A DNA stretch of 33,631 bases. Origin: Candidatus Zhuqueibacterota bacterium. Its GTDB lineage: Bacteria; Zhuqueibacterota; Zhuqueibacteria; Oceanimicrobiales; Oceanimicrobiaceae. This document shows, in pieces, positions 2,709 to 33,395 of the stretch; within the stretch, counting starts at the first letter, position 1; the number at the start of each line of letters is the position of its first letter. The stretch lies in assembly GCA_029262005.1 (NCBI GenBank), contig JAJDAG010000194.1:1-33631 (forward strand). The letters run 5' to 3'. The position numbers and the translations under genes were made by a program. The notes beneath the pieces are model-generated. The model did no database searches. It saw nothing but the letters and a program-made list of their open reading frames with translations, and was not told where the DNA came from.

Positions 2709-2762
2709 ATGGAAACAAAACAAGATAATTGTTACGAATATGAAAAACAAGCAAAAGTTTAG
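2709..2762 (+). CDS. 17-aa leader peptide overlapping the intI start
   Basis: ATG 2709 has a strong ribosome site (AGGATAAGG) while the intI ATG at 2740 has none. The short frame reads [17 protein letters not shown] and stops at 2760-2762, 20 bases inside intI in another frame. Translation of intI may therefore depend on ribosomes ending or reinitiating from this frame. This is an inference from ribosome-site strength only. Confidence 0.35.
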
Positions 2763-3750
2763 ACCCAATCCTGAGGCGCGGCTGCTGGATCAAGTCAGGG
2801 AGGTGCTGCGTTACCACCATTATGCCTATCGCACGGAACAGACATACTGCGAGTGGATCGTCCGCTATGTCAAATTCCACAAAGCCAGGAAACATCCGCG
2901 TGACATGGGCAAGCCTGAAATTGAGGCATTCCTGAGTCATCTGGCGACACACAGCAACGTGGCGGCTTCAACCCGGCGTCAGGCCATGCACGCATTGCTG
3001 TTTCTCTACCAGAAGGTACTGGATATACCCATAAGCGATGAAATATCTCCAATAAAGGCCCGGCGAAACAAACGTCCGCCCATCGTTTTGACTCAGGCCG
3101 AGGTACAGGCTGTTTTGGCACAGATGAGTGGCATCCACGCTCTGATGGCCCGCATTTTATATGGTGGCGGTCTGCGTCTCATGGAATGCATTCGCCTGCG
3201 CACGCAGGACATCGACTTTCACAGGAACAAAATTTATGTGCGCGATGGTAAGGGCGGCAAGGATAGGGTGGCTCTGCTTCCGCTCAGTCTGCACGAGCCA
3301 TTGCGGTCGCACCTCGGCAAGGTCAGGCAACTGCATGAACAGGATCTCGCGGGCGGTTACGCCGAAGCCTACCTGCCGCACGCGCTCTCCAGAAAATATT
3401 CATCGGCCGCAAGAGAGTTCGGTTGGCAGTACTTATTTCCTGCTAAAAAGGTGAGCGAGGACCCGCGCTCAGGCGTGATTCGCCGGCATCACGTGCTCGA
3501 GTCGGGCTTACAGAAAGCGGTGAAGACGGCTGTCCGTCGTGCAGACATTGAAAAACACGTTGGCTGCCATACTCTGCGTCACAGCTTTGCGACGCATTTG
3601 CTCGAAAAGGGCATCAACATCAGGGTGGTGCAAGAGTTGATGGGCCACGCGGATGTCAAGACTACGGAGATTTATACACATGTGATGCAAAAGAATCTTG
3701 ACGAAGTCAGAAGCCCGTTGGACATAATCCTGGATAAGGACTTAACATGA
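2740..3750 (+). CDS. intI: Integron integrase (tyrosine recombinase)
   Basis: A 336-aa protein, nearly the length of IntI1 (337). It has the N-terminal core-binding domain (about 14-95) and the catalytic domain (about 112-325). The tyrosine-recombinase residues are R146, K171, H277, R280, H303 and nucleophile Y312. The stretch at 221-262, including FGWQYLFPA and [11 protein letters not shown], is the extra segment that separates integron integrases from XerC/D. The protein would recombine attC hairpins with attI. It is divergent from the cassettes on its left, the usual integron layout. ATG 2740 fits the IntI N-terminus but has a poor ribosome site. All key residues are present, so the enzyme should be active. 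Confidence 0.97.
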
Positions 3751-4254: not shown

Positions 4255-4733
4255 ATACCTTTGATAATTGCTTGCGGTCAAGCGTCCTTTGGTTAAAGTT
4301 ATTAGCCGTTCGTCACGGATATGTGAGAGCTCTAAAAAGTCCTTCGATGTTTGCTTACGGTCAAGCGTGCGTTGGTTAAAGTTATTTGCCGTTCGTCACG
4401 GATATGCGAGAGCTGTAAAAAGTCCTTCGATGTTTGCTTACGGTCAAGCGTGCGTTGGTTAAAGTTATTTACCGTTCGTCACGGATATGTGAGAGCTGTA
4501 AAAAGTCCTTCGATGTTTGCTTGCGGTCAAGCGTGCGTTGGTTAAAGTTATTTGCCGTTCGTCACGGATATCTGAGAGCTGTAAAAAGTCCTTCGATGTT
4601 TGCTTGCGGTCAAGCGTGCGTTGGTTAAAGTTATTAGCCGTTCGTCACGGATATGTGAGAGCTGTAAAAAGTCCTTCGATGTTTGCTTGCGGTCAAGCGT
4701 CCCTTCATCAAAGTTAGTAGCCATTCGTCATGA
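4255..4733. repeat. 83-bp tandem repeat array
   Basis: GCTTRCGGTCAAGCG recurs at 4270, 4353, 4436, 4519, 4602 and 4685, an exact 83-bp period. There are five full units, a partial sixth to about 4733, and the tail of an earlier unit from about 4255. Units differ at only a few bases, mostly near the ends of the array. Each holds two or three small dyads: GCTTG/CAAGC, CCGT/ACGG and TCAC/GTGA. As 83 is not a multiple of 3, the overlapping open frames shift from unit to unit and are unlikely to be genes. There are no variable spacers, so it is not CRISPR. Confidence 0.9.
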
Positions 4734-5113
4734 TCCCTCAAATCATGATGCCGCCACCGGGTATTATGCAGACCAGCAAGCCCCACTTGATGGCCAGGCC
4801 ATCGAACGGATGCCACCCGTCTACCGGGATGCATCGCCTATGGCCGCGAGCAAGTTCGCAACCAAACCGGCGAGCGCATTGATGCTGGTTGCGGCTGGTT
4901 CGTGCCGCCAGGAGACGGCCAAATCCAGCGTCATTCCTGTGCCCGCACCGTTCAGATCGATTAAAACCGGAAGGCGATTTATAAATTATTCATACAATTG
5001 ACAAACTTTTACTTGATTTTAACGCAAAAACACATTATCAAAAGTATATGTTATAATTACCCGCTATTAATTAATTTATGTATTCACTGTACAGAAACAA
5101 AAGGAGATGTTTT
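4734..5113 (+). promoter_or_regulatory. Gene-free stretch with probable promoter of the oxidase
   Basis: No gene is supported in 4734-5000. TATAAT at 5052-5057 lies in AT-rich DNA 57 bp before the oxidase start and is a plausible -10 box. No clear -35 stands 17 bp upstream; TTGATT (5013-5018) and TTGACA (4998-5003) are offset. AGGAG precedes ATG 5114. Confidence 0.35.
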
Positions 5114-7111
5114 ATGAATATTGGAAGTTACCGTTATTTTCACGGCATAGTCATGGTTGTTCTAGGGACACTGCTATGTAGTCCTTTGACCGCGGGAGAA
5201 GTTGCTGTTAAGCGAACACCCGTGCAACCACTGGTTGCAAATGACATCAATCCAAGCCCCACAACTGTTGAAGTTATTTTAACCGCAACAGAGCACGGCT
5301 ATGACTTCGGTTCCGGCCAGGAGACAATGGTCTACACTTACAATGGCAGCATTCCCGGCCCGACCATCGTAGCCAACCTTGGCGACACTTTGATTGTGCA
5401 CTTCACCAACAATCTGCCGGAAGCAACAACAATCCATTGGCACGGTTCCGAACTGCCTGCAGCAATGGATGGCAGCCATATTGCGCAAAACCCAATTCCA
5501 CCCGGTGGCACATTTCGCTATGAGTTTAAGCTCCTGCGGGCCACACTCTCATGGTTTCATCCCCATATTCGTACTCACGTTCAAGTAGAGAAAGGCCTTT
5601 ACGGCATGCTGCTGGTGCACGACCCTGACCAGAATGCAAGTCTCGGCCTGCCTGAAAATGAACATGTGCTGGTATTAGACGATATTCTTCTGGATGACGC
5701 AGCGCAAGTAGCCGAAGCTTTTCCGGCTGACCCACTTGAAAACACCCTGACTCAGGTAAATGGCAGGGAAGGAAACAGTTTGCTGGTCAATGGTAAGACT
5801 GCCTTTGCAGACACCATTGCCAACGGCGTTCCCCACAGGCTGAGGATCGCCAATGTAGCAAATGCCCGGTTTATGCGTGTATCCATTCGTGGCCATCGTA
5901 TGTGGCGTATTGGTGGAGATGGTGGCTTGCTTGAAACCCCTATCGAAATCCAGCCCGTCGAACAGGTCGCAGACCCGGAGAACCCGGACAATATGATCTC
6001 GGATCCGGATATCACCAAAGGCCTGTTGCTGTCACCGGCAGAACGCGCTGATATTGTTTTCACGCCAATGGTTAACGATTCTATCGTGATTGAATGGCAT
6101 GACATTGCGCGTGGACGACATTCGGCGTCCTACGACTCAACCGGCGCCATCGCTCTCGGGCACGATCATCACGACGGCCACCATCCACCACAAACGCTGG
6201 CTGTATTGTATTTGGATGGAACCTCAGATTCAGAATACATCCCACCCACTTCTTTGCGCAGCATTAACAAAATCAGTGCCGATGGCGCAGCCAAAATACC
6301 GGTTATGTTTGGTCACTCATTGCCGGACTCTGCAGGCAACGTGACATTTTTTGCGCAAATGAAAGATGGAAAACCACTTCCCATGGATAAAGTAACTCCC
6401 GAGGACGCACCCAAAGTGAATATCGGTGATGTAAGAATTTGGGAAGTAAACAACATGACCGGCGGCATGCACAATTTTCACTCACACGGATTTCATTTTC
6501 AACTCATCGAAACCGAGTATTTGGACATGGATAATCCGGCAAGCAATCGTGTGGTTCCGGCAGAATACCTTGAAGACAAAGACACGATTCTACTTTTTGC
6601 CAGACCTGGCGCCAAAGGACGCAGCCGCACCATCACCCGCCTGGCTGTCTGGTTTGATGATGCCGGCCGTGAAGCTCAAATCGTGGCAGAGGGTAAGGAG
6701 CCAACGGCGTCCAGTTCAGGCGGCTGGTTGTTTCACTGCCATATTCTTGAACATGCCGCAAGAGGCATGATGAGTTTTCTGCAAGTAATAGACAACGAAA
6801 CATTTGTTGAGGGAGGGTTGGCCTCGGTGCCCGAGACTTATTACCTTCAACAAAATTATCCAAATCCATTCAATCCCGAGACCAAAATCCGCTTCGAATT
6901 GCCTCAAGGTAACCGTGTGTTAGTTAAGGTATATAATATACTTGGCGCGGAAGTAGGCACATTGCTTGACGAGCAATTAGACGCAGGCATTCATGAAGTG
7001 AGCTGGGATGGCAAAGATACCAACGGCATTGCCATGGCTTCAGGGCTTTATTTTTACCAGCTACGTGTCGGCGAAGTATCGCAAGTTCGAAAAATGAGCC
7101 TTGTCCGCTAG
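5114..7111 (+). CDS. Secreted multicopper oxidase with C-terminal sorting domain
   Basis: A 665-aa protein. ATG 5114 is preferred to an upstream in-frame ATG (5078) because AGGAG lies just before it and a signal peptide follows (IVMVVLGTLLCSPLTAG). The copper ligands of laccase-type oxidases are all present: HWH (108-110), HPH (149-151), HNFHSH (453-458) and HCHILEHAARGM (541-552), the last with the axial Met of the type 1 site. Oxidation of a phenol or metal ion with reduction of O2 to water is the family reaction; the substrate is unknown. A His-rich loop (HDHHDGHH, about 350-357) may bind extra copper. Residues 573-665 form a T9SS-like sorting domain (YPNPFNPETKIRFELP, ending KMSLVR), so it is probably exported to the cell surface. 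Confidence 0.93.
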   Translation: MNIGSYRYFHGIVMVVLGTLLCSPLTAGEVAVKRTPVQPLVANDINPSPTTVEVILTATEHGYDFGSGQETMVYTYNGSIPGPTIVANLGDTLIVHFTNNLPEATTIHWHGSELPAAMDGSHIAQNPIPPGGTFRYEFKLLRATLSWFHPHIRTHVQVEKGLYGMLLVHDPDQNASLGLPENEHVLVLDDILLDDAAQVAEAFPADPLENTLTQVNGREGNSLLVNGKTAFADTIANGVPHRLRIANVANARFMRVSIRGHRMWRIGGDGGLLETPIEIQPVEQVADPENPDNMISDPDITKGLLLSPAERADIVFTPMVNDSIVIEWHDIARGRHSASYDSTGAIALGHDHHDGHHPPQTLAVLYLDGTSDSEYIPPTSLRSINKISADGAAKIPVMFGHSLPDSAGNVTFFAQMKDGKPLPMDKVTPEDAPKVNIGDVRIWEVNNMTGGMHNFHSHGFHFQLIETEYLDMDNPASNRVVPAEYLEDKDTILLFARPGAKGRSRTITRLAVWFDDAGREAQIVAEGKEPTASSSGGWLFHCHILEHAARGMMSFLQVIDNETFVEGGLASVPETYYLQQNYPNPFNPETKIRFELPQGNRVLVKVYNILGAEVGTLLDEQLDAGIHEVSWDGKDTNGIAMASGLYFYQLRVGEVSQVRKMSLVR

Positions 7112-7150
7112 GGCTTTCCGAATAATCAACAACTTGGCCTTGATGTTCTG

Positions 7151-7179
7151 CAAAGGCGGCGTGTCTATTTGCCGCCGCC
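7151..7179 (+). terminator. GC-rich hairpin after the oxidase gene
   Basis: GGCGGC (7155-7160) and GCCGCC (7171-7176) can pair around a ten-base loop, 40 bases after the oxidase stop. No T-run follows. It may separate the oxidase from the PqqD-like gene, whose transcription could use TTGACA at 7216-7221 as a -35. Confidence 0.3.
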
Positions 7180-7280: not shown

Positions 7281-7571
7281 ATGCAAAACAAGATAAACGA
7301 TTCCACATTTCTGGTCAAAAAGCCCGGATTCACCACAACAGTTCTGCCGAATGGCAACTGGGTATTCTTTGACGAGGAAAACAACAAAGTGGTGGTAATG
7401 AGTGCAACCGCAGGCATTTTCTGGGAATTATGTTCCGGCGTGCCGGATCTTGGGGAACTCACAAAACAGATTGCCGCGCTTTATCCAGACGTCAAGGCCA
7501 CAACAATCCGCAAAGATGTGCAGAACATAATACCGCAGCTCTTCCAAAATGACTTGTTGACAATGAAATAA
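7281..7571 (+). CDS. PqqD-like protein (stand-alone RiPP recognition element type)
   Basis: About 96 aa from ATG 7281; an in-frame ATG at 7254 would add nine residues but has a badly placed ribosome site. The pattern TVLPNGNWVFFDEENNKVVV, then SATAGIFWELCSG and YPDVKATTIRKDVQ, is typical of the PqqD family. In PQQ, lasso-peptide and radical-SAM peptide pathways these small winged-helix proteins bind the leader of a precursor peptide and present it to enzymes. It stands first in a tight set followed by a short peptide, an HPr-kinase-like protein and a nucleotidyltransferase. The fold call is firm; a role in peptide modification is inferred from the neighbours. Confidence 0.85.
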   Translation: MQNKINDSTFLVKKPGFTTTVLPNGNWVFFDEENNKVVVMSATAGIFWELCSGVPDLGELTKQIAALYPDVKATTIRKDVQNIIPQLFQNDLLTMK

Positions 7572-7611
7572 GTATTTCGTACTGTGCCATTGACCTTAAA
7601 AGGAGGAAGTT

Positions 7612-7866
7612 ATGTCGAAAAGCGAAAGCGTGAACAAAAACAACGCCAGTGAACATAGTTCCAGACGCGAGTTTATTCAACGAACGCTCAAGATGACTAC
7701 CGGCGCCTATGTCAGCATGAACATCCTTGAGCAATTTGCCGGCCCTGAAATGGGAAAAGGTGGTATGCCACTATACGCTGCCAGTGGGCGCGTCATCCAT
7801 GGCACTGGCGACGATGGCCATGCGCGGGATCATGATTTGAAAGACCGGCCCCAACGTGACCATTAG
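7612..7866 (+). CDS. 84-aa Tat-motif, His/Asp-rich peptide; candidate modified-peptide precursor
   Basis: ATG 7612 has an ideal ribosome site (AGGAGG), so it is almost surely translated. The N-terminus is hydrophilic and Ser/Asn-rich, then comes SRREFIQ (residues 17-23), a good twin-arginine motif, and a weakly hydrophobic stretch (TTGAYVSMNILEQFA). The C-terminal 22 residues carry five His and six Asp (GDDGHARDHD, then QRDH), a possible metal-binding or modified tail. It lies between a PqqD-like protein and a kinase-like protein, as RiPP precursors often do, but no known core motif is recognised. It ends in TAG at 7864; the same frame then stays open into the kinase. It could instead be a truncated N-terminus of a larger protein. 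Confidence 0.7.
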   Translation: MSKSESVNKNNASEHSSRREFIQRTLKMTTGAYVSMNILEQFAGPEMGKGGMPLYAASGRVIHGTGDDGHARDHDLKDRPQRDH

Positions 7867-7977
7867 ATACAGAAAACCCATGGCAACCTGTGGAACCAAG
7901 TACTCGCGAACACCACACAGGCCGTCAATGGTGAAGAAAAGCCACTGTCTCTAGTTTCTGTTTTACCGTCTCCGCTC

Positions 7978-8892
7978 TTGTTCTCCGAAGAAATAGTTGG
8001 TTTATATTGTGTTGACAGCGTCAATTTTGGCGTTTGCTGGCGTGGTGACAATAAGACCCAGGGCGAATATATTAAACAGTGGTTCGACCACGTTTTCCGA
8101 CACATTGCCGTTGCGTCTTCCCAAGTTGCTCAACTTGAGTCGCGCCTGGGCGCTTTAAAATTTTCAGCAGAACCTGCCTTAAGTTGGTCGGTAGCAGGTG
8201 GCACAGTTATGCTTGAAACTGCAAATGCGCTCCCGATTTTTTGTCTGGTCACAACCGATCTCACTGATGACACGCTTCTCGCAAACACCCTGCAAGATAC
8301 GGAAATCACGATAACCAACTATATGACTTCGCAGATGAAAAGCAGGCTCTGGATTCATGGTGCATGCCTCTGTAAAGACAATCGTCTTGTCATGCTGGTT
8401 GCGCCGTCCGGTTTTGGTAAAACGACTCTCAGTCTTGCCCTCCTCAACCACGGCTTCACACTTCTGACCGATGACATTATTATCATTAACTGTGAAGACG
8501 AGGTGGTCCTGCCCTACCCAAGATGCCCGAAAATAAGAAAAAACGCGGTTCGATTGCTTGCGACTGTTGGTGTAAACCTTGAAGAGATAGCAGAATTGAT
8601 CAGGCAATTCGTAATTCTGCCATCACGACTTGTTCAGTGTGAACCCATGAAGATACCGAAGACAAAATTAACGACTTTCTTTTTATGCCAAAATAATGCG
8701 CACAACAGGACAGGCTCGGAACCAGTGGCATACTCAAACGCTATCATCGAGCTTGCAAAACTGTCAAACCTGCTTTACCAGGAACCTGCCCTGGAGACCT
8801 TCGACAGGCTTTTTTCGCAATCTGAATTTTACCGACTCACGATTAGGGATCTAGGTGAAAATATTCACCAAATCATTGGCATTGCCGATTAA
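7978..8892 (+). CDS. HPr-kinase-like protein (lasso-peptide-kinase type), start uncertain
   Basis: A 304-aa protein if read from TTG 7978. APSGFGKTT (142-150) is the Walker A loop and LLTDD (about 161-165) the following acidic motif of HprK/PckA-type kinases. Relatives next to PqqD-like genes phosphorylate serines of lasso peptides such as paeninodin; others work in exosortase loci. The frame is open for 37 codons back to the TAG that ends the upstream peptide, with no ATG, GTG or TTG before 7978, and 7978 has no ribosome site. The true start, or a lost one, is therefore unclear. The nucleotidyltransferase gene follows 14 bp after the stop, indicating an operon. Confidence 0.8.
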   Translation: MFSEEIVGLYCVDSVNFGVCWRGDNKTQGEYIKQWFDHVFRHIAVASSQVAQLESRLGALKFSAEPALSWSVAGGTVMLETANALPIFCLVTTDLTDDTLLANTLQDTEITITNYMTSQMKSRLWIHGACLCKDNRLVMLVAPSGFGKTTLSLALLNHGFTLLTDDIIIINCEDEVVLPYPRCPKIRKNAVRLLATVGVNLEEIAELIRQFVILPSRLVQCEPMKIPKTKLTTFFLCQNNAHNRTGSEPVAYSNAIIELAKLSNLLYQEPALETFDRLFSQSEFYRLTIRDLGENIHQIIGIAD

Positions 8893-8906
8893 TATTGCTG
8901 CAGATC

Positions 8907-10130
8907 ATGATACTTGATTCTTGTCTGTCTCCGGAACAACAACTTCTTATCTTATGTGCACGCACAACGCCTTCCGCACTCATTATTGAGCAAATACAAG
9001 CACGCGCGCAAGGCAAAGTCGATTGGCACTATTTTACAGAGCTGGCGCTTCAGCACGGCGTCATGCCTTTGACCTATTGGAACTTGAAGCTCTATTGCCG
9101 GGAACAAATTCCGGCGAACAGCTACGCCCGGTTATCACGTTTTTACTATATGAACTGCTACCACAATTTGATGCTGGCGCAGGAGCTTGTTTCACTCATG
9201 CAGTCTCTTAAAGAAACGGGCATCCCGGCCTTGCCGTTTAAGGGGCCTACATTGGCTTTGTCCGTTTACGGGGACCTGTCCTTTCGTCAAATTAACGACC
9301 TGGACATCATTGTGCCCCAACAAGATATTCTCAGAGCCAGAGATTTGCTGCTCTCCTCAGGTTATAACACCAAGTTTGTCATCGAAAAAGCACATGAAAA
9401 GCTGTTTATTAATGCCAATCACGCTTATAACTTTATACGGCGGGATAATCATCTTATTTGTGAAGTTCATTGGCGAGTCGTGCCGCGCTATTTCAGTTTT
9501 CCCTTAAAAGCGGAGACTTTGTTACAGCAGGCCACAACTGTTACTATGGATGGTGTCACTGTCGCGGCGCCGTCTCCTGAACACTTATTGCTCATTTTGT
9601 GCGGCCACGCCGCTAAGCATTGCTGGGACCGTCTGTCTCTAGTCTGCGATATTGCCGAGTTGGTTCGAGCCTATCCTATCCTGGACTGGAACTCTGTGCA
9701 CAGGCAAGCTTCAGCCTGGGGGCTCACTCGCATACTTTTCCTTGGGCTCATGGTTGCACAAGACGTTTTTGGGGTGCCTCTACCTGATGAGATGTTGGAG
9801 GCGCAATCTCAGGACAGAGCCGTGCATGGCCTTGTTAACCGTGCACGTAACCGACTCTTTGCACGCAATGCCAAACGTATCACCGAATTCAGCCGTATGT
9901 CCTACCATCTGCGCAGCAGGGAGCGGTCGGTTGATCGCTTGCGATACTTATTCCATTTTTGCTGTACACCCAATCTGGAAGATTTGCGCTTCATTCACTT
10001 GCCGGGCCGGCTTTCCTTTCTCTACAAATTGGTTCGGCCGGTGAGACTTTTTGCATTGGAACCAATCATGAAACTACTTCCAAATCGCTTGAAACAGGCA
10101 ATTAAAAATTTTGGGCATTGGCTGGAATGA
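8907..10130 (+). CDS. Nucleotidyltransferase family protein (NTP_transf_5 type)
   Basis: About 407 aa. ATG 8907 is chosen; a TTG four codons earlier is possible. KGPTLALSVYGDLSFRQIND followed by LDIIV carries the fold's metal ligands D131 and D133. This family sits beside HPr-kinase-like proteins in exosortase-linked loci and in lasso-peptide loci, where members have been linked to sugar addition on the peptide. The remaining length is mostly helical with no signal peptide, so it is cytoplasmic. It ends the PqqD/peptide/kinase set; a strong hairpin follows. The family assignment is firm, the acceptor unknown. Confidence 0.85.
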   Translation: MILDSCLSPEQQLLILCARTTPSALIIEQIQARAQGKVDWHYFTELALQHGVMPLTYWNLKLYCREQIPANSYARLSRFYYMNCYHNLMLAQELVSLMQSLKETGIPALPFKGPTLALSVYGDLSFRQINDLDIIVPQQDILRARDLLLSSGYNTKFVIEKAHEKLFINANHAYNFIRRDNHLICEVHWRVVPRYFSFPLKAETLLQQATTVTMDGVTVAAPSPEHLLLILCGHAAKHCWDRLSLVCDIAELVRAYPILDWNSVHRQASAWGLTRILFLGLMVAQDVFGVPLPDEMLEAQSQDRAVHGLVNRARNRLFARNAKRITEFSRMSYHLRSRERSVDRLRYLFHFCCTPNLEDLRFIHLPGRLSFLYKLVRPVRLFALEPIMKLLPNRLKQAIKNFGHWLE

Positions 10131-10281: not shown

Positions 10282-12831
10282 TTACCGCAACAAACTCATC
10301 TTCCGTACTTCCACAAAATTTCCAGCCCTTAGCTCGTAAAGGTACATACCGCTGGAAACCTGGTTGCCTTTGCTGTCCTTACTGTCCCAACGTACGCCGT
10401 GGTAACCAGCTTCGTAAGACTGGTCAACCAAAGTGCGCACTTCCTGACCGAGCGTGTTGAAAATTCGCAAGACAACATGGCTGGCTTGCGGCAGGGCGAA
10501 GCGAATCTCGGTATCAGGATTGAACGGATTCGGGTTGTTCTGGTAAAGCGTAAATTCCTCCGGCAGCAACTCCGACTCTGTTTCATCACCAAGCCAGATA
10601 GCCTTAGGCAAACCCTGGCCACGCAGATTCCGACCGTAGAAATCTCGCACAAAAGTTTGTGTGGTGAGAAGATCTGCAAGAACAGGGTCATTGGGATCAG
10701 GTCGGAATGGATAATTAGGGTCGACAGTAAGTAGTGTGGAACCATCCGGCGCATGGGCAAACAGCAACGCGCCCGATACCACAACACTTTGTCCCGGAGC
10801 AAGGTCGAAAGGACCGGTAGTGAGCAGAGTGCGGACGTCCGCAATAATATCGGTTTCAAATTGATTCGTACCCGCTAGGAAATCGTACTGCACAGCATCT
10901 TCATTCGGATCGGGATTGGCCGGTCCACCATTGATAAAGGTGACGCGATTAGCGACTCCTATGTTACCTGGGGTCTCGAGAAAATCGAACCCTACGATAC
11001 CGGGTTGTTTAGTGAAATTGACTTCTGAGAAATCAGAGTCCCAGGTAATCATCATATCGTTGACAAAGCTCGCCTGGTCATCCCCGGCCGATGGAAGATT
11101 GCCGACGTCCGCGTCACACCAGAAGCCAAAATAGGTGTCCTCAATGTCCTCACTTGAAATATTGGCAACCTCCCAGATGAAAATCAGAGCATTCTGTAGT
11201 TCCGAATCGTTAAAAGCAAGGCTGCGCTGGCGAATCTCGATGCCAAGCGGTGTAGGTACATCTCGCATAGGCGTACCAGTCACATCATTGTATTCAACAA
11301 CCAGATTCTGCGCACCGGCAACAATGCTGGCCTTCCCGGAAGGGCTACTGAATTCAGGTGGCCAGTTTTTCTTTTCTTTTGGCAGTTTGCTGTTGAACAC
11401 CCGAAACAGCTCACCGGTTGTACCCATTTCACTCGGTGCGAATTCGGTATTGTGGCTTGCTTCGGCGACGGTGGCTGTGCCATTGACCAGACCGCCAACC
11501 CAAACCCCGGCTGTATAAATGTATTGGTCGCAGGTTTTCTTCGGAAAGAAGGCAAATGCGACTTCACCAGCCCCATAAGCGAGACGGCCGTCTTCAGCAA
11601 CCATAAGTTTTACCTGGTTGCGATCATGAATGCCCGGTGCATTTGACTCACATGCTGTTCCTCGTGGAACCATGCGGACTGCATCGTAACCCTCGAAATA
11701 GACGCCCTCGAAGGTCTCTCCGTCAAGGCGGGCTTGGTAATCGCTGCACTGGAGTCCGGTATCGCCAAAACGAAAGTGCGCAACCATATCGGTATCGCCA
11801 TCGGAGTCAACATCCTGAAGATGCCCGGTGCCATGAGCCTCAACCGCTTTTGCCGGCCCAAACATCAATGTAGAAGGATCAACCTGCGTGGCATCGAATT
11901 CGTTGGTGGTCAGAAGGGCAACAGGAATGACGCCCTTGAGGTTTTCACAGTTGATCGAATTGGGATCGCTGCCCGGCTTGATGTCGATCGTAATCATCTG
12001 GCCAACAGTCAGCCTGAAGCTGGTGCCGGTCTCCGGCATTGCATTTACGAGTCCGTCGCCAGCTCCAGGTGCACTTTCGTATTGATGCTGATTCCAATTC
12101 ATCAGAACCACTCTTGCAATGTGCTGTTCCCCCTCGTAGTTGTAGGAGCCGTTCATGGCATTTTGCACAAACTGCTCATAGCCAGCCTGGCCGGGCGTGC
12201 GATCGTCCGGTAAAATAAAATAGAGCCAGTCGGAATAAGGATCGTTTCCAGCTCCTGAAGCCTCGTGATCCAGCTTGAAATCAAATATGTCGTTATCATT
12301 CTCATCGTAGAACCACGGAAACATGCGTATATCGTCTGTGGGATCGTTTGCTGTCTTTCCAAGATACCAGAGCTCAAACGGCACGTCCACCAGGTGTGTG
12401 AACTCCACAAAGCCTAAAAAGGCTTTACCGCCCGATTCCGTGAATCGAATCTCATAGGCATTGGCGAGGATCACATTGTTAAGTGTCCCATTTCGGGTCC
12501 AGCGCCCTACGGCATTCGCGTGGTCTGTGATGTTGTTCGGCCCAGCTACCACAAAATACCAGCCACCACCAGCCTGCATGCCGTTGGCCAATCCGAGAAC
12601 CGTTTGCGTACCCTGACTCACATCCCGATACCAGTCCGCTGAGTAGGCTCCGTGGTTACTTGGTGGTGTGGTGATGTCAAAACCCACAACATCTGTGATG
12701 GGCCCATTCCCATTGGAGATCATCTCAAATGATTTAAAAACGATAGGTGATTGTGAGTAGGAAGTTACTGTAAGGCCCAATGAAAAAAGAAAAATCAGGC
12801 CTGGAGCTAAGAATAATGAACGTTTTCCCAT
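10282..12831 (-). CDS. Large secreted protein with T9SS-type sorting domain
   Basis: About 849 aa. ATG 12831 is chosen because GGAGG lies just upstream and a signal peptide follows (LFLAPGLIFLFSLGLTVTSY). A middle module opening IDIKPGSDPNSIN and continuing GVIPVALLTTNEFDA and DVDSDGDTD is a repeat-like domain common in secreted proteins of environmental bacteria; its Asp-rich part may bind calcium. The C-terminus (NPNPFNPDTEIRFALPQ, then SGMYLYELRAGNF, ending KMSLLR) is the sorting module also seen on the multicopper oxidase. No enzyme motif is recognised; a surface or extracellular structural role is possible. Confidence 0.85.
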   Translation of the reverse strand: MGKRSLFLAPGLIFLFSLGLTVTSYSQSPIVFKSFEMISNGNGPITDVVGFDITTPPSNHGAYSADWYRDVSQGTQTVLGLANGMQAGGGWYFVVAGPNNITDHANAVGRWTRNGTLNNVILANAYEIRFTESGGKAFLGFVEFTHLVDVPFELWYLGKTANDPTDDIRMFPWFYDENDNDIFDFKLDHEASGAGNDPYSDWLYFILPDDRTPGQAGYEQFVQNAMNGSYNYEGEQHIARVVLMNWNQHQYESAPGAGDGLVNAMPETGTSFRLTVGQMITIDIKPGSDPNSINCENLKGVIPVALLTTNEFDATQVDPSTLMFGPAKAVEAHGTGHLQDVDSDGDTDMVAHFRFGDTGLQCSDYQARLDGETFEGVYFEGYDAVRMVPRGTACESNAPGIHDRNQVKLMVAEDGRLAYGAGEVAFAFFPKKTCDQYIYTAGVWVGGLVNGTATVAEASHNTEFAPSEMGTTGELFRVFNSKLPKEKKNWPPEFSSPSGKASIVAGAQNLVVEYNDVTGTPMRDVPTPLGIEIRQRSLAFNDSELQNALIFIWEVANISSEDIEDTYFGFWCDADVGNLPSAGDDQASFVNDMMITWDSDFSEVNFTKQPGIVGFDFLETPGNIGVANRVTFINGGPANPDPNEDAVQYDFLAGTNQFETDIIADVRTLLTTGPFDLAPGQSVVVSGALLFAHAPDGSTLLTVDPNYPFRPDPNDPVLADLLTTQTFVRDFYGRNLRGQGLPKAIWLGDETESELLPEEFTLYQNNPNPFNPDTEIRFALPQASHVVLRIFNTLGQEVRTLVDQSYEAGYHGVRWDSKDSKGNQVSSGMYLYELRAGNFVEVRKMSLLR

Positions 12832-13464
12832 GGTAAAATCCTCCAAGGTTTAGCATCGAGAAAAACAAAGCTGAGGCCTGTTTGGCCCAGCAAAATCATC
12901 ATTATTAAGTATTGGCTTGGTCACCAGGTGAGTCTTTTCACAAGACCCTGTTTTTGGTACGCCATAACCGTGCCAGCTAAACTGAGGTCGAGAATGAACG
13001 TCTTTATATGATTTTTTCCCAGGATCGATAAAAAGGGAGAATAGATTCGCAGATATGGAACGGAAGAAGCGCTTGGGAGACGCACGTAAACAAAAATGTG
13101 CTGTGGTTTTATTTTGGACCTTGGGTAGATTCACCTGCGGTGGATTCTAATGACTATTTATTATCCGCAAGCCTTGCAGGCTGGCGGCGCACGCCACCAT
13201 TTTTTACTCCCATCCGCCAAAACTATGTTCATGGAGAAGCTCCACTCTTCAAAATAATACCCAATACCCTATCGCTATTGAAAAACAAAAAAGCCGTAAG
13301 AACAAGGAAAGTCCACGTTTGTGGAAATATGCGGGTTGTGCGGTTCTCATGCTATGCATTGGGTGGACCCCTGCGTGAGGTAAACCAGCAATCTTCATTT
13401 ACGGAAAGTGCAAGTATTTACTCGTAACGAAGAAGTAACTCCTTTACGATATTGGAAAACAACC
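12832..13464. other. Gene-free stretch
   Basis: About 630 bp without a convincing gene on either strand. It must hold the promoter of the minus-strand secreted protein (right of 12831) and of the plus-strand membrane protein (left of 13465). No riboswitch, tRNA or clear promoter boxes were recognised. Confidence 0.5.
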
Positions 13465-23700: not shown

Positions 23701-23772
23701 CCTTTATCCTCCTTGTGATATGATTTTGTTGTTTTGTTTAATCCATTAAATCTGACGATTGAGTTCCCCTGC

Positions 23773-24048
23773 TACGCTCGCAGGAGATTTACACACCCTT
23801 GCCATTTTACCATGAAATCCCCTGCGAAACCAATGAATAAGGAATTTCATTCCATGCAACAATTGTATGGGTGGTGAAATAAATGCCATTGTCATCACCT
23901 ATTCTGTATCGGCCCCTATTTTCGATTTCAACATCTGCTACTCATCATTGTTCAGGCTTCATTTTCGGGACACAGTCCCTGACTTATGGGTGCGTCGGCG
24001 CTGACCGGGTGAGCAGTGCCAGTTGGTTACACCCCCCCGCCGAGCGTA
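23773..24048. repeat. MITE-like element family B, copy 1
   Basis: Begins TACGCTCGCAGGAGATTTAC and ends, on the other strand, with TACGCTCGGCGGGGG, forming imperfect terminal inverted repeats of about 22 bp. Inside are CCAATGAATAAGGAATTTC and GTCCCTGACTTATGGGTGCG, both shared with the copy at 26170-26466. No reading frame of size, so it would be a non-autonomous element. Confidence 0.65.
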
Positions 24049-24070
24049 ACGATTCACCAATGCGAAGCAG

Positions 24071-24550
24071 CTATTCCCGGGGAACTGAGCGCCTGGCCAG
24101 AAGTCGAAACTGCCGGAAATGGTGGTGAAAGTGCACACCGTGCGCACGGCTCCAGGAGCCAGGTGTAAGCGGCCCCAGAATCGTATGAATCGCCTGGCAC
24201 TCAGGCATTTCCTCGAGCCTCTTTACGAAGCGGTCGAGAGCCGAAATGAGCAGTTCCCTCTCAACTGCAAAGACCTCGTCGGCCGGCGGTAGCCAGTATG
24301 CCGGCAATCGAGTCCTCGAAGGCGGCCATACTGTGAAAACATGGAAGAACAACAGCCAGATAATCTTCCGGAGAATCGGGATACTGCGGTCGGAGACTTC
24401 GACCTCGCCCAACGATATCTCCAGCGCCCGTCGCAGATGACGCATCATGGTTTTGGCGTCCAACCGGCCCCACCTGGGCTTCGACTCCGGCGTCAACAGG
24501 CTGATACGGTTTTTGAAATAGGCAAGATGCTCCGAAGTCAGTGTCCTCAT
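24071..24550 (-). CDS. DUF1569 family protein
   Basis: 159 aa. PRWGRLDAKTMMRHLRRALE near the N-terminus and LGPLTPGSWSRAHGVHFHHH with FRQF near the C-terminus fit DUF1569, a DinB-like four-helix family with a His-based metal site. The start ATG overlaps the stop of a 47-codon frame upstream (ATGA), which suggests translational coupling. The reading frame overlaps none of the flanking repeats. Function unknown. Confidence 0.7.
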   Translation of the reverse strand: MRTLTSEHLAYFKNRISLLTPESKPRWGRLDAKTMMRHLRRALEISLGEVEVSDRSIPILRKIIWLLFFHVFTVWPPSRTRLPAYWLPPADEVFAVERELLISALDRFVKRLEEMPECQAIHTILGPLTPGSWSRAHGVHFHHHFRQFRLLARRSVPRE

Positions 24551-24690
24551 AGTAAGCTCTCAGCTTTGATGCCGTACTGCCATGCAGGCGACGAACAAAG
24601 TGGCCGGAGCCAATACCCGATTGTCTTCGAAACAGAACCAGGTACTGCCGTGGCAATGGCGAAAAAGGTTATTCCTGTCTTGAGACGCAT
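24547..24690 (-). CDS. 47-aa small protein upstream of DUF1569
   Basis: ATG 24690 follows a good ribosome site (AAGGAGA). MRLKTGITFFAIATAVPGSV looks like a short membrane or signal segment; the rest (IGYWLRPLCSSPAWQYG) is not recognised. Its TGA overlaps the DUF1569 start by ATGA. It could be a small coupled protein or the N-terminal part of a frameshifted membrane protein. Confidence 0.4.
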   Translation of the reverse strand: MRLKTGITFFAIATAVPGSVSKTIGYWLRPLCSSPAWQYGIKAESLL

Positions 24691-24722
24691 ATCGTTCGCT
24701 TTCTCCTTTGGCTGCATATCAC

Positions 24723-24820
24723 TACGCTCGCAGGGGATTTATTCCCGCTTGCCACTTTAGCATGAAATCCCCTGCGCTCTGCCCTGAGCGCTGTCGAAGC
24801 GCAACCAATGAATATGGGAA
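24723..24820. repeat. MITE-like element family B, truncated copy
   Basis: TACGCTCGCAGGGGATTTAT, then CCCGCTTGCCACTTTAGCAT and CCAATGAATA match the left part of the complete family B copies. The rest of the element is missing. CCCTGAGCGCTGTCGAAGCG inside looks like a separate small dispersed repeat. Confidence 0.6.
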
Positions 24821-24951
24821 GGCAGAAGAGGGCCGCATATTTCAACTACTTTTTAACATAATGTCTACGCAACTAACCTCCTCTATTAGTTGCTTGATCC
24901 CAGAACTGTACGGCCTGACCCTCTTTACCGGTATCAGGTCTTTGCGAATCT

Positions 24952-25149
24952 TCTGCTCGCCCTGGGTTTCCACCCGGGGCGTTCAATAAATTCGGGCTTC
25001 TGCCCCCATCAGTCCTGAAAAAGTGTCTCCTTGAATATTTTTGCACCGTTTTCTTCATCGCTTAACCATGTCCAGGCGCACTGCTACACTCAACTTCGTG
25101 GGGCGGAAGCCCTTTCTAATTGCGCCCTGGGAGGAATCGCAGGGCGAGC
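24952..25149. repeat. MITE-like element family A, copy 1 (internally shortened)
   Basis: Starts TCTGCTCGCCCTGGG and ends CGCAGGGCGAGC. The two ends are inverted repeats of about 50 bp, each able to fold into its own small hairpin and each including GGGCTTCTGCCCC or its near complement. It shares CATCAGTCCTGAAAAAGTG and GAATATTTTTGCACCGTTTT with the other copies but lacks about 40 bp of the centre. Confidence 0.8.
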
Positions 25150-25177
25150 GAAACTAGAACGTTAGTTAGGAACCGCA

Positions 25178-26146
25178 TTATGTTCTTCTTAGATAAAAGG
25201 CTGCTTGATCTCCTTTTCCCTCTTCGTTAAGTCGTCTGGCTTTTTCGGTGAATTTCAATATATCCTGCTCGTTAAATATCGAATCGTCTATATTGGTTTT
25301 GAATGACCGAGGATGAAATAGAGGAATATCTTCCACATATTGTTCACTGCCAAGGAACTGAAACTCTGTCGAATCATATACAATGTTTTCAATAACGAAA
25401 TTTGTTCTTTTTGCTAAATGTTCAATACTTTCTACTGAGTGTAAAAATAGATGACGAGGAGCATCCAACTGCACCCAATTGGTTGTATATTTTTGCCAGG
25501 CATAAGAAGATACTATCGGAATTCTAATAAGGAGATAGCTGTGGGGTCTTAATATCTCATGCAAAGACTCCAATACATCGGTCGGATTTGACATATGTTC
25601 GAAAGAATGATTCAAGATTATGAAATCAAATTGTTGGTTTAAATCCCAAACCTCTTTTTTTAGAACCCTTACTCCGCATGGATATGAAATATCTTCTTCG
25701 ATATATGGGTCGATGCCTGTTAAGCTGTCAAAACCAGCACTGTTTAATGATAAGAGCATTTGGCCTTTGCCGCAACCGACATCTAAAATGTCATCACTTA
25801 CTTTGAGACCTACTTCGCGAGGCCATTGTGGAAGATGTCGATCTCCATAATATTTGAAGATGAGTTTTCCAACGACTGTCTTTTCTCCAAGAAAATATCT
25901 TAACCTGAGTTGCTTTAGGTAGCGTTTGAACAGAGAGGGTGTCGATATCATTGAATCAGAGAATGAGTAGTAATTTTCAGGATAATATTTTTCTATATTG
26001 GGGGGCATTTGTTTTATTTGAAGGCAACCACAATGGCAGCATTCAAAATATTCAAATTCATCCCCGAAACCAAACATCATCTCACGAACAGTGTATCTTC
26101 TATGAGAAGAAACACTGTCACAAATACTGCACTTTAATTGAGCCAT
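25178..26146 (-). CDS. Class I SAM-dependent methyltransferase with N-terminal zinc-finger-like motif
   Basis: 322 aa. The N-terminus has CSIC and CCHCGC (6-43), a zinc-ribbon-like pair common before sugar methyltransferases. DILDVGCGKGQMLLSL is the SAM-binding motif I and LNHSFEHMSNPTDVLESLHE with ILRPHSYLLIRIP the methyltransferase core. Relatives act in cell-surface glycan synthesis, but no such genes are near. It stands alone between a family A and a family B repeat element; CTAAC (minus strand) lies 11 bases past its stop, as in attC R'' boxes, so it may once have been a cassette. Confidence 0.85.
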   Translation of the reverse strand: MAQLKCSICDSVSSHRRYTVREMMFGFGDEFEYFECCHCGCLQIKQMPPNIEKYYPENYYSFSDSMISTPSLFKRYLKQLRLRYFLGEKTVVGKLIFKYYGDRHLPQWPREVGLKVSDDILDVGCGKGQMLLSLNSAGFDSLTGIDPYIEEDISYPCGVRVLKKEVWDLNQQFDFIILNHSFEHMSNPTDVLESLHEILRPHSYLLIRIPIVSSYAWQKYTTNWVQLDAPRHLFLHSVESIEHLAKRTNFVIENIVYDSTEFQFLGSEQYVEDIPLFHPRSFKTNIDDSIFNEQDILKFTEKARRLNEEGKGDQAAFYLRRT

Positions 26147-26169
26147 CTTTTTGTCAACCCTTTACAAAT

Positions 26170-26466
26170 TACGCTCGTTGGGGACTCACTATGTCAAACG
26201 CTCGTGGAGGATTTACACCCGCTTGCCACTTTAGCATGAAAGCCCCTGCGCAACCAATGAATAAGGAATTTCATTCCATGCAACGATTATATGTATGGTG
26301 AAATAAATACCACTTTCATTAACAACAACGTCCCATATCCTTGTCGTCTGCTATTCAGTCTTAGCCCGCTCTTTATTTGGGGGGACAGAGTCCCTGTTTT
26401 ATTGGTGCGTCGGGGATTAGGTTTTGGGGCTCTTTAGTGAGTCGTGTAAATCCCCGACGAGCGTAC
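26170..26466. repeat. MITE-like element family B, copy 2
   Basis: Left end TACGCTCGTTGGGG (with a second ACGCTCGTGGAGGATTTAC at 26198) and right end GTGTAAATCCCCGACGAGCG, which are inverted repeats of each other. The interior has GGAATTTCATTCC, TGGTGAAATAAATACCA and GACAGAGTCCCTG as in the other copies. No gene inside. Confidence 0.7.
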
Positions 26467-26494
26467 AAACTGACTTACCGCAGGGTTCGTCTAG

Positions 26495-26539
26495 GCTAAG
26501 CTGGCGCTAACAGCGCGCGGCTTGAGCCGCTTGTTATGT
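26495..26539 (-). other. attC-like remnant at the end of the DinB gene
   Basis: On the minus strand ACATAAC (an R''-like box, containing the DinB stop codon) is followed by AAGC, then GGCTCAAGC and later GCTTAGCC, which pair with one extra base on the first arm. This is half of an attC pattern. No R' box follows at the expected distance, so it would be inactive. GCTATGT just upstream of the gene (27084-27090) is one base off the R' expected for this cassette. Confidence 0.4.
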
Positions 26540-27064
26540 TGCTGGGGTTTCATTTATAACGTTCAGGTTCATATTGGCGCAATACTTCATATCAATTGCT
26601 CGTTTAGATTTAACGAAATAAGTAATTTGACCTGTATGGTAAGCAAAATGTTGCGTTACGTTGAGAATGTGTTCCACGCCGGTATGTGTAAAGCCCTGGA
26701 TGCAGGTCGCTTTTGTGAAATCGTCTTTCTTGAGATTTTCAAGAACGGCCCTTGTACCAGAGATCGTTTCATTTAGTTTGGTTCTTAAGTCTTCAGTTGG
26801 CAAGGGGCCTTTTTCATTGAATTCTTCATCTCTAACCCGGACATCTTTGACTTCCCCGATACCGCTAATGATGTACTGCCGGACATTGCCGCACAAGTGT
26901 AAGATTAGATTTCCCACACTTACAGTTTGATCGTTTGGACGGAACCAGATTTCATCTTCCGTGAGCTCATCAAGGCATTTGTGGATTCGAGAAGGTGATT
27001 CGTCGCAGAGCCGTTTAAGCGTCTCTTTGATAAAACCTTCTTCAATGGTATTTGGATGACTCAT
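26534..27064 (-). CDS. DinB-like protein (DUF1572 type)
   Basis: 176 aa with AAAGGAAAC before ATG 27064. SVGNLILHLCGNVRQYIISG and NVTQHFAYHTGQITYF supply the His residues of the metal site in the DinB/YfiT four-helix fold. Members act in thiol transfer or stress responses, but most are uncharacterised. The stop codon lies inside an attC-like R'' box, so it looks like a former integron cassette. The length is normal for the family. Confidence 0.85.
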   Translation of the reverse strand: MSHPNTIEEGFIKETLKRLCDESPSRIHKCLDELTEDEIWFRPNDQTVSVGNLILHLCGNVRQYIISGIGEVKDVRVRDEEFNEKGPLPTEDLRTKLNETISGTRAVLENLKKDDFTKATCIQGFTHTGVEHILNVTQHFAYHTGQITYFVKSKRAIDMKYCANMNLNVINETPAT

Positions 27065-27133
27065 TTTTACGTTTCCTTTAGCAACATAGCAAGATGCTCA
27101 CCTGCGGCAGGGGGCCGAGCAGTGAACGATTTT

Positions 27134-27371
27134 TCTGCTCGCCCTGGGTTTCCACCCGGGGCGTCCAATAAATTCGGGCTTCTGCCCCCATCAGTCCTGA
27201 AAAAGTGTCTCCTTGAATATTTTTGCACCGTTTTCTTCATCGTTTAACCATGTCAGAGCGCTGCTATACTTCCAATGTTCTCGTTTCAGCACCAGTCCTT
27301 ATTGGTTTTCCAACTCAACTTGGGGCAGAAGCCCTTTCTAATTGTGCTCTGGGAAGAATCCCAGGGCGAGG
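27134..27371. repeat. MITE-like element family A, copy 2
   Basis: 238 bp from TCTGCTCGCCCTGGG to CCCAGGGCGAG. The terminal inverted repeats are about 50 bp. The centre shares CATCAGTCCTGAAAAAGTG, CCATGTCAGAGCGCTGCTAT and CTTATTGGTTTTCCAACTC with copy 3. It does not encode a transposase. Confidence 0.85.
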
Positions 27372-27770
27372 GCCGAGCGAGTTCATTTAAATGAAAATTT
27401 GGGTTCGAGAAGATGACCCAACCTACAAACTGATACTTCATTGCCATTTCCAGCCTGGTTCAAACGACAATTTTCTTTTTTTCATCTGAAATATGAACTC
27501 TCAGATTAAGAGATGTGGTTAAGTGGGAACGCTCATTATCAAGATAAATCAACATTCTAACAAAGTCAAATAAAAATCAGTCCGGCTTGCCGGCTAATGC
27601 AGCTGTTTTCTTCTGCAAACGGACGAGTGGCCCGATCCAGCCATCGTGTGCCACCCATTTATGTTATTTCACGTCACGGGCACCCGGCGCCTTCACCCTG
27701 AGCCAAGTCGAAAGGTGAAGTAAATCACATTTTCCCATAAGTCTCCATGTGGGCGAACACATAAAATCAG
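27372..27770. other. Gene-free stretch with a short dispersed repeat
   Basis: No gene seen. 27580-27621 (GTCCGGCTTGCCGGC, then AATGCAGCTG and TTCTTCTGCAAACG) recurs with few changes at 32359-32399. CCCTGAGCCAAGTCGAAAGG at about 27699-27718 is another common intergenic repeat motif. Confidence 0.45.
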
Positions 27771-28640
27771 TTATTCAATTTCCAATATGGCGTTTTCGCG
27801 CAAAAAGGGATTGTTCAGATAACCTGAGCCAAAGGACTCCAGATTTTCACCCATGCTTTGCAGCAACTCCAACGAGGCTTGCGGGTTTTGCGTGAGGAGG
27901 AAGGGAATGACCTGATATTTGCCGGTTGCCAACCCGATTTCTGCGGGAAGAAACATCGTATACCGGATAGTGGGTGTCGTGTTGACGATAATGGTCTCGG
28001 GCCGCTCAATCGTCACCCAATTGCCGTCCTGATCTTTAAACAGGGTGCGTGAGGTCAGAACTTCACCGGAATTCAGGTTTCTGAAAAGGACGCCGCCGAT
28101 TTTACCACGATCCGGTTGAGTTAGCGGCAGGGTTACGGAAACCTGCGCCTCGGCGGCTTGCAGTGTAACCTCAACTTGTACAGAATCGGTGTAATCAGAC
28201 GTCACCACCTCGGGGATAACTTCTGTATATATATTGAAATTTTGTTTTAAAGTAATCGATTTTTTCATTTTGCCGTTCTCATCGAAATCACCTTTTGTGA
28301 AGTTAAAACGACCATTTTGAATGAAAACCTCAGCTGTGGCGACTTCGTAGTTGGTGGCGTAAAAATAAAGGGTAAAAAAGCCGATAATGCCTGCCGAATT
28401 GGTTGTCTGCGGCAATGTTAGGGAAAATTGGCCTTTTTCATTTGTGCGAGTATGGAGGCCTATTGTTTCCAGCCATACGTAAACATTTTGCAGGTTCACC
28501 GCCTCGGCCACGTTTATTTGGCCTTGAATACCATTGACAATGTTGCTACTACCGATGGGACTGCCGGTGCATCGCGTGAATACAATTATCAGTAAAAAAC
28601 TGTGAAGTAGCAGAAGTATTGCTTGAATTGTTCGAGTCAT
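27771..28640 (-). CDS. Exported carboxypeptidase-regulatory-like domain protein, probable lipoprotein
   Basis: 289 aa, GGGAG before ATG 28640. The N-terminus is a hydrophobic signal (AILLLLHSFLLIIVFTRC) with Cys24 as a possible though imperfect lipobox. Residues about 36-95 (VNGIQGQINVAE, then VYVWLETIGLHTRTNEKGQF) resemble the carboxypeptidase regulatory-like beta-sandwich found in many surface proteins. The remainder is beta-rich with no catalytic motif. It probably sits in the cell envelope; the role is unknown. It stands alone. Confidence 0.65.
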   Translation of the reverse strand: MTRTIQAILLLLHSFLLIIVFTRCTGSPIGSSNIVNGIQGQINVAEAVNLQNVYVWLETIGLHTRTNEKGQFSLTLPQTTNSAGIIGFFTLYFYATNYEVATAEVFIQNGRFNFTKGDFDENGKMKKSITLKQNFNIYTEVIPEVVTSDYTDSVQVEVTLQAAEAQVSVTLPLTQPDRGKIGGVLFRNLNSGEVLTSRTLFKDQDGNWVTIERPETIIVNTTPTIRYTMFLPAEIGLATGKYQVIPFLLTQNPQASLELLQSMGENLESFGSGYLNNPFLRENAILEIE

Positions 28641-29420
28641 GGTTTGTTGGCTCCCTGTATTTTGTTCATGGTCATTAATAAAATAGCTGGCAGAGCAGTG
28701 ATATGCTTTTAATCGGTTACGACAAAGTGCCCACCGTGCCCTTTAAAGGGCAGGCACAAATATTCCGTGTCATCAGCTACGTAGAGTGGTGTCCAGCACC
28801 ACCATTTTCTCAAATATCGATATTAAAACCCGATCATGACCAAACGTAGAACAGTTTATTGAATGGTGTTCGACGCCACCCTTCATGGCTATTCATTATT
28901 AGCTCCCGCTTTATTTAACGACAGTTATTGGTAAGTCCGGGATTACGCGAATAACCGAGCCTGGCGCAGCAAATCGTCAACGAGCGCGGAACAGGCTTTA
29001 CCGGCTGACATCCAGCGCGCAGTCGAGGCAATTGCCTTATTCTGGCACACCGGCGTTGCGACTGAATATGGCACTTGACGAAGTCATCGCCGGGAACATA
29101 GGTTTTCTCCTGATCTGGATAGCACCCAAAAATTACAATCCTTCCATTGGTAGTCAAGCAAAAACTGACTAAATGCTACAAAAACCAACTGCATAAGTCC
29201 GAAGTAAAGACATTATTAAGAAACCTCATAATACCGGCGCGTGATTAGCGACATTTATTTTTCCCTGTTGGCGATTTGCTCTCCTCAGCCGCAATTGCTG
29301 TAATCGTTGCAAACTTGGCCTGGTAACCATCTTGATTTGACATATTTTACCGCATGTAATTTGTGTGGATTATACTACATAGACAACTTCAGTTGCCGCT
29401 TTCCACTCAAAAAATGCCTT
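28641..29420. other. Gene-free stretch with small hairpins
   Basis: No intact gene. GTGGTGTCCAGCACCAC (about 28780) and GGTGTTCGACGCC (about 28865) are short hairpins. A minus-strand frame at 28915-29157 is Arg/Cys-rich without a recognisable family and may be a decayed gene. Confidence 0.4.
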
Positions 29421-29658
29421 TCTGCTCGCCCGGGGTTTCTACCCGGGGCGTCCAATCAATTCGGGCTTCTGCCCCCATCAGTCCTGAAAAAGTGTCTCCT
29501 TGAATATTTTTGCATCGTTTTCTTCATCGTTTAACCATATCAGAGCGCTGCTATACTTCCAATGTTCTCGTTTCAGAACCAGACCGTATTGGTTTTCCAA
29601 CTCAACTTGGGGCAAAAGCCCTTTCTAATTGCGCCCTGGGAAGAATCCCCGGGCGAGC
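29421..29658. repeat. MITE-like element family A, copy 3
   Basis: 238 bp from TCTGCTCGCCCGGGG to CCCCGGGCGAGC, the same length as copy 2 and almost identical in the centre. On the minus strand the element starts 16 bases after ACATAAC (29675-29681), an attC R''-like box downstream of the barrel-protein gene. Confidence 0.85.
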
Positions 29659-29724
29659 CGAAGTGCAAAATTTTGTTATGTCTCGCTCGATCTCGAAGAT
29701 TTGGACTCGTGTTTGGTGATTAAA

Positions 29725-30387: not shown

Positions 30388-30458
30388 GGCAACAAGCTCC
30401 TTCAAAACTTGCAAATAACGGGCTGCTCATCTCTCTACACACGGCATCAGCAATCTCC

Positions 30459-30504
30459 GCCTAACGGTTGAGGTGACGGCGTTTTTTGCCGTGGCCGTAC
30501 ACCT
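30459..30504 (-). other. Partial attC site (R', L' and L'' present)
   Basis: On the minus strand: AGGTGTACGGC, a loop, GCCGTCACCT, five-base spacer CAACC, then GTTAGGC, which fits GTTRRRY exactly. The arms pair with one extra base in the first arm, as expected for L''/L'. No R'' box (RYYYAAC) lies at the right distance upstream, so the site is incomplete. Confidence 0.5.
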
Positions 30505-30617
30505 TCTATTTTTTACTGAACTTAATATCTCTTTAGCAAAGGGGTGCTTTATGCGCATTTGCGAATTTCTGCTCACAGGATAATTCTCGCAAGCATTTTC
30601 TGGATGAACCTTCTTTT

Positions 30618-31046: not shown

Positions 31047-31082
31047 TGTTCAAAATCTATTTCTATTCTCTACTTTAGACTG

Positions 31083-31214: not shown

Positions 31215-31364
31215 GCCAATCATCATGATTTTTGATTTTAGCGACCGCCATCTTCGTTGTTTTGCCTCATTGCCATTTGCTCAGAGCTAATAATAAGGTT
31301 GCCGGGCATATCTATGTCATACATACGGCAAAATGGCAATGGATAGACTCGACCCGGCGAATCC

Positions 31365-33349: not shown

Positions 33350-33395
33350 TTCGGCTTGTTGGCTTTAAAAAGGCAAACCCAACCTGCAAACCTGA

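Follow-up and report, generated by a model that had tools for sequence, protein, structure and literature searches.

A set of four genes in the 33,631-nucleotide stretch of DNA analysed here (the window) would, by analogy with studied systems, form a cyclase-free peptide-modification cassette resembling the tailoring module of the linear polyphosphorylated peptides (LPP) and of paeninodin, with a linear product exported via Tat. We put the probability of this reading at a little under 60%. The cassette looks like a real variant, so far little studied, of a peptide family that was described only recently, since similar tag-plus-kit gene sets recur in distant bacteria, and the main doubt is whether it is functional or the remnant of a lasso-peptide cluster. 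The four genes named in a first-pass annotation of this DNA (PqqD, a peptide, an HprK-like kinase and a nucleotidyltransferase) were all found where it had placed them. They lie on the + strand in the order PqqD–peptide–kinase–NTP5, with the following features:

7281..7571, + strand: PqqD-family RRE (RiPP recognition element), 96 aa, from ATG 7281; an ORF start is possible at 7254
7600..7606, + strand: Shine-Dalgarno sequence AAGGAGG, 5 nt upstream of the peptide ATG
7612..7866, + strand: candidate substrate peptide, 84 aa, with an RR-type (Tat-like) N-terminus and a His/Asp-rich tail
7660..7677, + strand: twin-arginine motif S-R-R-E-F-I, residues 17–22, as read from the sequence
7735..7752, + strand: F-A-G-P-E-M, residues 42–47, likewise as read
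7777..7788, + strand: A-A-S58-G, a predicted junction of signal-peptidase-like type that includes Ser58, the proposed acceptor
7978..8892, + strand: HprK-like kinase, 304 aa from TTG, with a TIGR04352 match and the HKDD set
8895..10130, + strand: NTP_transf_5 (PF14907) nucleotidyltransferase-like protein (NTP5), 411 aa, 202 bits against PF14907

The cassette is flanked by the genes for a multicopper oxidase (5078–7111) and an opposite-strand protein (10282–12846), both with type IX-like sorting tails.

Each of the three enzymes has its full length, intact catalytic residues and gene-like codon usage. The window PqqD scored 46 bits against PF05402 (cut-off 23.4) and gave weak matches to TIGR03859 and to lasso PqqD models. 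There was no match at E ≤ 1 to TIGR04353 (cut-off 35 bits), which is the PqqD model of the system named HPr-rel-A in NCBIfam. The kinase model of the same system, TIGR04352 (HprK-related kinase A), matched the window kinase with E = 4e-14 and 52.2 bits, far under the 200-bit equivalog cut-off; non-annotated relatives from the Tat-type loci described below scored 53–130. The kinase is divergent, falling under the cut-off of PF07475 (25 bits against 33.3) and matching solved HPr kinases weakly (3tqf, E = 5e-4), and it retains the His-Lys-Asp-Asp (HKDD) set of lasso kinases in the motifs IHGAC, PSGFGKTT and LLTDD. The kinase profile used for the comparisons was hand-picked, an earlier iterative profile having drawn in ABC ATPases. 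An AlphaFold2 model of the kinase made without an alignment was set aside (pLDDT 32.5). In the nucleotidyltransferase, the KGP and DLDI motifs are conserved with its relatives.

The first possible start of the kinase is TTG 7978, where there is neither an ATG nor a ribosome site. Its frame stays open upstream of this first TTG for 37 codons, back to the TAG of the peptide (7864–7866), and peptide and kinase therefore lie in one reading frame. With a single TAG between the two, either read-through or the loss of an earlier fusion can be envisaged. We saw no need for stop-codon read-through joining peptide and kinase, since a start near TTG 7978 agrees with the length of the kinase N-terminus as compared with those of its relatives.

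A cyclase, a leader peptidase and a transporter had been described as absent from the window, and none was found there in the ORF list or by Pfam scans. A search of the entire genome (5.77 Mb, 98.7% complete) gave no match to the lasso leader peptidase B2 (PF13471). In three related genomes (G017, G030 and G036), the same PF13471 search did find B2, immediately next to PqqD, in genuine lasso clusters whose precursors have YxxPxLxxxGxxxxxT leaders; this strict lasso leader motif is absent from the window peptide. The window cassette is not a lasso cluster. The genome does hold five Asn_synthase proteins, every one on other contigs, and the window peptide has lasso-like spacing (see below), both of which would suit a genuine lasso precursor that is matured in trans, with the cyclase encoded elsewhere in the genome. 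We consider this highly improbable, as the PF13471 leader peptidase is missing from a nearly complete genome, the other two PqqD matches are on contigs without Asn_synthase, and the peptide does not have the C-terminal Ser of PadeK-type substrates.

The lasso clusters of the three related genomes (L077, L078 and L079 in G017, G036 and G030, respectively) comprise PqqD, B2, AsnB, a kinase, a PRMT-like methyltransferase, an ABC transporter and NTP5, and adjoin Wzc-like polysaccharide genes.

The nearest studied system to the window cassette is LPP, as encoded by the Paenibacillus lpp cluster. LPP clusters, described in 2026, have an RRE, an HprK-like kinase and an NTP transferase with no cyclase, and additionally hold an SpI-like leader peptidase and an MsbA-like exporter (PMC13381572). 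The LPP RRE binds YxxP in the leader, the kinase places several phosphates on Ser3, right after the leader junction, and the family was described as restricted to Bacillota (PMC13381572). The window likewise has a discrete RRE, an HprK-like kinase, an NTP transferase and no macrolactam cyclase, but neither an SpI-like peptidase nor an MsbA-like transporter is among its ORFs. LPP differ further in having YxxPxV leaders with no reported RR motif and in being located in capsule loci. The LPP leader motif YxxPxVLxHQxIxFETxxS is absent from the window peptide, which has just FxxPxM at residues 42–47.

With the paeninodin and pseudomycoidin systems (PadeK/PsmK, PsmN), the window shares an HprK-like kinase with the HKDD set, a PF14907-type nucleotidyltransferase and a PqqD-type B1, but it has no B2, cyclase or C-terminal acceptor Ser. 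For pseudomycoidin, the phosphate is introduced by PsmK and decorated with hexoses by PsmN (PMC9266682). Clusters that combine radical-SAM, PqqD and HprK, SynChlorMet (ScmC/ScmD) among them, occur commonly in the class to which the window belongs (L076, L080, L081 and L083–L085) and also bring PqqD, an HprK-like kinase and NTP5 together. However, these clusters have radical-SAM enzymes and, in most cases, S26 peptidase-like proteins and YxxP-type precursors, all of which are missing from the window. In two of them (L081 in G060 and L084 in G023), the kinases are of SynChlorMet type (ScmC, 238 and 193 bits) and are accompanied by radical-SAM genes, next to polysaccharide-export-like genes.

The HPr-rel-A system, consisting in NCBIfam of TIGR04352 and TIGR04353 and represented for example on plasmids of Sphingomonas parapaucimobilis and Vibrio alfacsensis, was not mentioned in the literature searched. 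Its likeness to the window lies in a PqqD and/or HprK-related kinase, an adjacent NTP5, an RR-type protein next door and no cyclase, where the adjacency of NTP5 and the RR-type protein and the lack of a cyclase are features found here and not NCBI's definition. The window differs in its kinase score (52 bits against the cut-off of 200), in a PqqD with no TIGR04353 match and in an NTP5 of lasso type; the RR-type neighbours are also longer in HPr-rel-A, at 161 and 270 aa. The cyclase-free RRE/HprK/NTP logic is already known from LPP, and HPr-rel-A is already an NCBI-named system with the same enzymes; the possible new class of modified peptide suggested in the first-pass annotation is thus not wholly new.

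The candidate peptide has the strong ribosome site that had been ascribed to it, AAGGAGG placed 5 nt before the ATG, and its His/Asp-rich tail is also real. For codon usage it scores near the median of sure genes, a level reached by none of 820 out-of-frame controls. Homologs of the peptide were found neither among the 388 genomes (335 genera) nor among the 72,556 plasmids searched. Matches at E values of 0.004–0.05 included L097–L100 and L181 (G325); L097–L100 were inspected and rejected as ordinary Tat signals or chance stretches.

An RR-type motif of the peptide's kind was seen in 0.26% of shuffles, and TatC is present in the genome (233 bits). The h-region is weak, with a best 12-residue hydropathy of 0.89 compared to 1.4–2.4 in the Tat-type relatives, the weakest of the set, and the Tat models of Pfam and NCBIfam gave no match to the peptide. 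Against a profile of Tat-type leaders the peptide scored 8.4 bits, which exceeds all 5000 shuffles yet equals the level of ordinary Tat signals (SufI 12.6 bits, TorA 8.9 bits). Because this profile fails to separate the window peptide from generic Tat signals, homology to the Tat-type leader peptides is not claimed.

Three further patterns were noted downstream of the RR motif. F-A-G-P-E-M (FxxPxM) bears a resemblance, and only that, to [Y/W]xxPx[hydrophobic], the motif by which lasso and LPP leaders bind the RRE (as defined in PMC13381572). Tat-type peptides of Alphaproteobacteria have AIAKSG or AASG at the position matching A-A-S58-G, and the window peptide agrees with them in having first the RR motif, then a hydrophobic stretch and then A[AK]SG; an RR motif with A[AKSE]SG downstream of it, a pattern picked after the relatives had been viewed, occurred in 1e-5 of shuffles. 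Finally, residues 42–67 (FAGPEMGKGGMPLYAASGRVIHGTGD) follow the leader-and-ring spacing of lasso precursors, YxxPxLxxxGxxxxxTxG plus Asp9, with Y, L and T replaced (F, M and A), a spacing seen in 9e-5 of shuffles. When 9,684 distinct small ORFs were screened, a tighter form of this pattern matched five: the window peptide, apparently three YxxP-type precursors and one unrelated ORF.

To compare neighbourhoods, contexts were gathered from genomes and plasmids with PqqD, kinase and NTP5 as bait, the bait sets being picked by enzyme similarity and not by peptide. In a search of genome contigs, the kinase and NTP5 used as bait gave no matches. Loci were defined by a kinase near a PqqD or an NTP5 and were split by the presence of radical-SAM, AsnB or B2 genes within 6 kb; each was then scored for a small protein with an RR/KR motif and a hydrophobic stretch adjoining the cassette. 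Where radical-SAM, AsnB and B2 genes were absent, such a protein was present in 18 of 29 loci, the window included. Where they were present, 3 of 44 loci passed the filter, and none of these three resembles a real gene of that type (Fisher p = 4e-7, or p = 5e-5 once near copies and the window were taken out). A nineteenth RR/KR locus among the 29, from Rhizobium tropici, was added later by the leader profile. The plasmid portion of the loci is rich in Rhizobiaceae; in the genome collection alone, with the window left out, an RR/KR protein was found in 3 of 12 loci.

Three genomes outside the window's phylum carry an RR/KR protein (G082, G128 and G294; loci L184, L187 and L189), with that of G082 reading MDKSKREFLKKLVKTCAYSVPVILTYRIGDLWAQEGGHGHKH... 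in part. Further carriers are Leisingera, Parasedimentitalea, Methylobacterium, Novosphingobium, Sinorhizobium, Ensifer and Rhizobium, and also Vibrio and Sphingomonas, in which the kinase or PqqD is annotated by NCBI as HPr-rel-A. In most alphaproteobacterial copies that have no separate PqqD gene, the N-terminus of the kinase is PqqD-like (profile match 97.8%), and RRE, kinase, NTP5 and RR peptide therefore travel together. The peptide of the relatives is usually outside the RRE–kinase pair; that of the window lies between PqqD and kinase.

The idea that a conserved small peptide would be found beside kinase–PqqD loci is thus borne out for the arrangement with an RR/KR protein, which recurs, but not for the window peptide, whose own sequence is not conserved. 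The same recurrence favours the related proposal that kinase and nucleotidyltransferase act on a linear, Tat-exported product, while the lack of conservation of the peptide and a leader that scores at the ordinary Tat level count against it. The apparent novelty is that an RR-type peptide partner recurs across phyla and that the window holds a mosaic member of this arrangement.

The view of the cassette as a mosaic comes from the enzyme trees. The kinase of the window clusters (97/94) with those from Tat-type loci and from two unassigned loci, although its placement with lasso kinases was not rejected (p-AU 0.13). The window NTP5 is sister to its nearest counterpart, the NTP5 of a lasso cluster from another phylum (L149, 42% identity), and its grouping with NTP5 of Tat-type loci was marginally rejected (p-AU 0.0375). 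As the NTP5 sides with lasso-type proteins while the kinase groups with Tat-type loci, these sequence relationships suggest that the cassette is probably a mosaic of a lasso-type nucleotidyltransferase and an HPr-rel-A-like kinase. The lasso cyclase gene of L149 (G178), at 4754–6647, is apparently split into two frames in the assembly.

The kinship with L149 also bears on the main rival explanation, in which B2 and the cyclase were lost between PqqD and the kinase and the leftover tailoring genes make no product. The order in L149 is PqqD–B2–AsnB–kinase–NTP5, compared to PqqD–peptide–kinase–NTP5 in the window, and such a loss would agree with the lack of PF13471 in the genome, the poor kinase start and the lasso spacing kept with three key residues replaced. 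We nevertheless regard a remnant as unlikely, given that the three enzymes have kept their full length, catalytic residues and gene-like codon use, that the peptide has an excellent ribosome site, that the kinase groups with non-lasso kinases and that the strict lasso motif is missing.

An active cassette could instead work on another substrate, either a peptide or a surface component encoded elsewhere. NTP5 genes frequently sit in polysaccharide loci, so a different acceptor is possible, and the window peptide is not conserved. This explanation seems to us quite improbable, because the operon itself encodes the peptide, with PqqD on one side and the kinase on the other and in the kinase frame, and because RR-type peptides recur at such loci.

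If, as we favour, the four genes form a cyclase-free cassette with a Tat-exported product, then PqqD, as the RRE, would bind and present the N-terminal leader of the peptide. The HprK-like kinase would phosphorylate, possibly several times, a serine beside the leader junction, for which Ser58 in AAS58G is the most likely candidate. The PF14907 protein may then add a group to the phosphate, either a hexose or a nucleotidyl group by analogy with PsmN. The RR-type N-terminus is predicted to route the finished linear peptide through Tat, after which signal peptidase would cut off the leader. Export and cleavage of this kind would replace the dedicated peptidase and pump of LPP, neither of which would be needed since the leader would double as the Tat signal.

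A broader proposal, which we advance tentatively and with rather less than even confidence, is that phosphate-modified linear peptides include a widespread branch, as yet undescribed, that is found in Alphaproteobacteria, Vibrio and several other phyla and is defined by RR-type (Tat) leaders which also serve the RRE for recognition. In this branch, a Ser just after the signal-peptidase site would be phosphorylated and capped before Tat export, and the window would be a mosaic member. The small RR-type proteins linked to HPr-rel-A would supply that system with a candidate substrate, acceptor serine and export route, and the link joins the HPr-rel-A genes to the LPP/lasso tailoring enzymes. A tractable copy in Sinorhizobium meliloti Ak57 pSymB (LZK74_19180–19190) makes a direct test of the idea possible. 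In the pSymB locus (L282), a 102-aa RR-type Gly/Ser-rich protein (6863–7174) is located beside a serine kinase and a nucleotidyltransferase.

Several other features of the window were observed. A tyrosine recombinase gene (2740–3750; PF13495 + PF00589, integron-integrase-like) has DUF3800 and DUF5655 genes beside it on the opposite strand. Between this integrase gene and the multicopper oxidase is a non-coding tandem array (4268–4730) with an 83-bp unit, 5.6 copies and 94% matches. Dispersed 55-nt repeats, one kind present three times and another four times, occur at 23772–26250 and 25095–33443. These repeats lie between single genes, some with self-complementary ends (CGCAGG...CCTGCG), and are cassette-array- or MITE-like.
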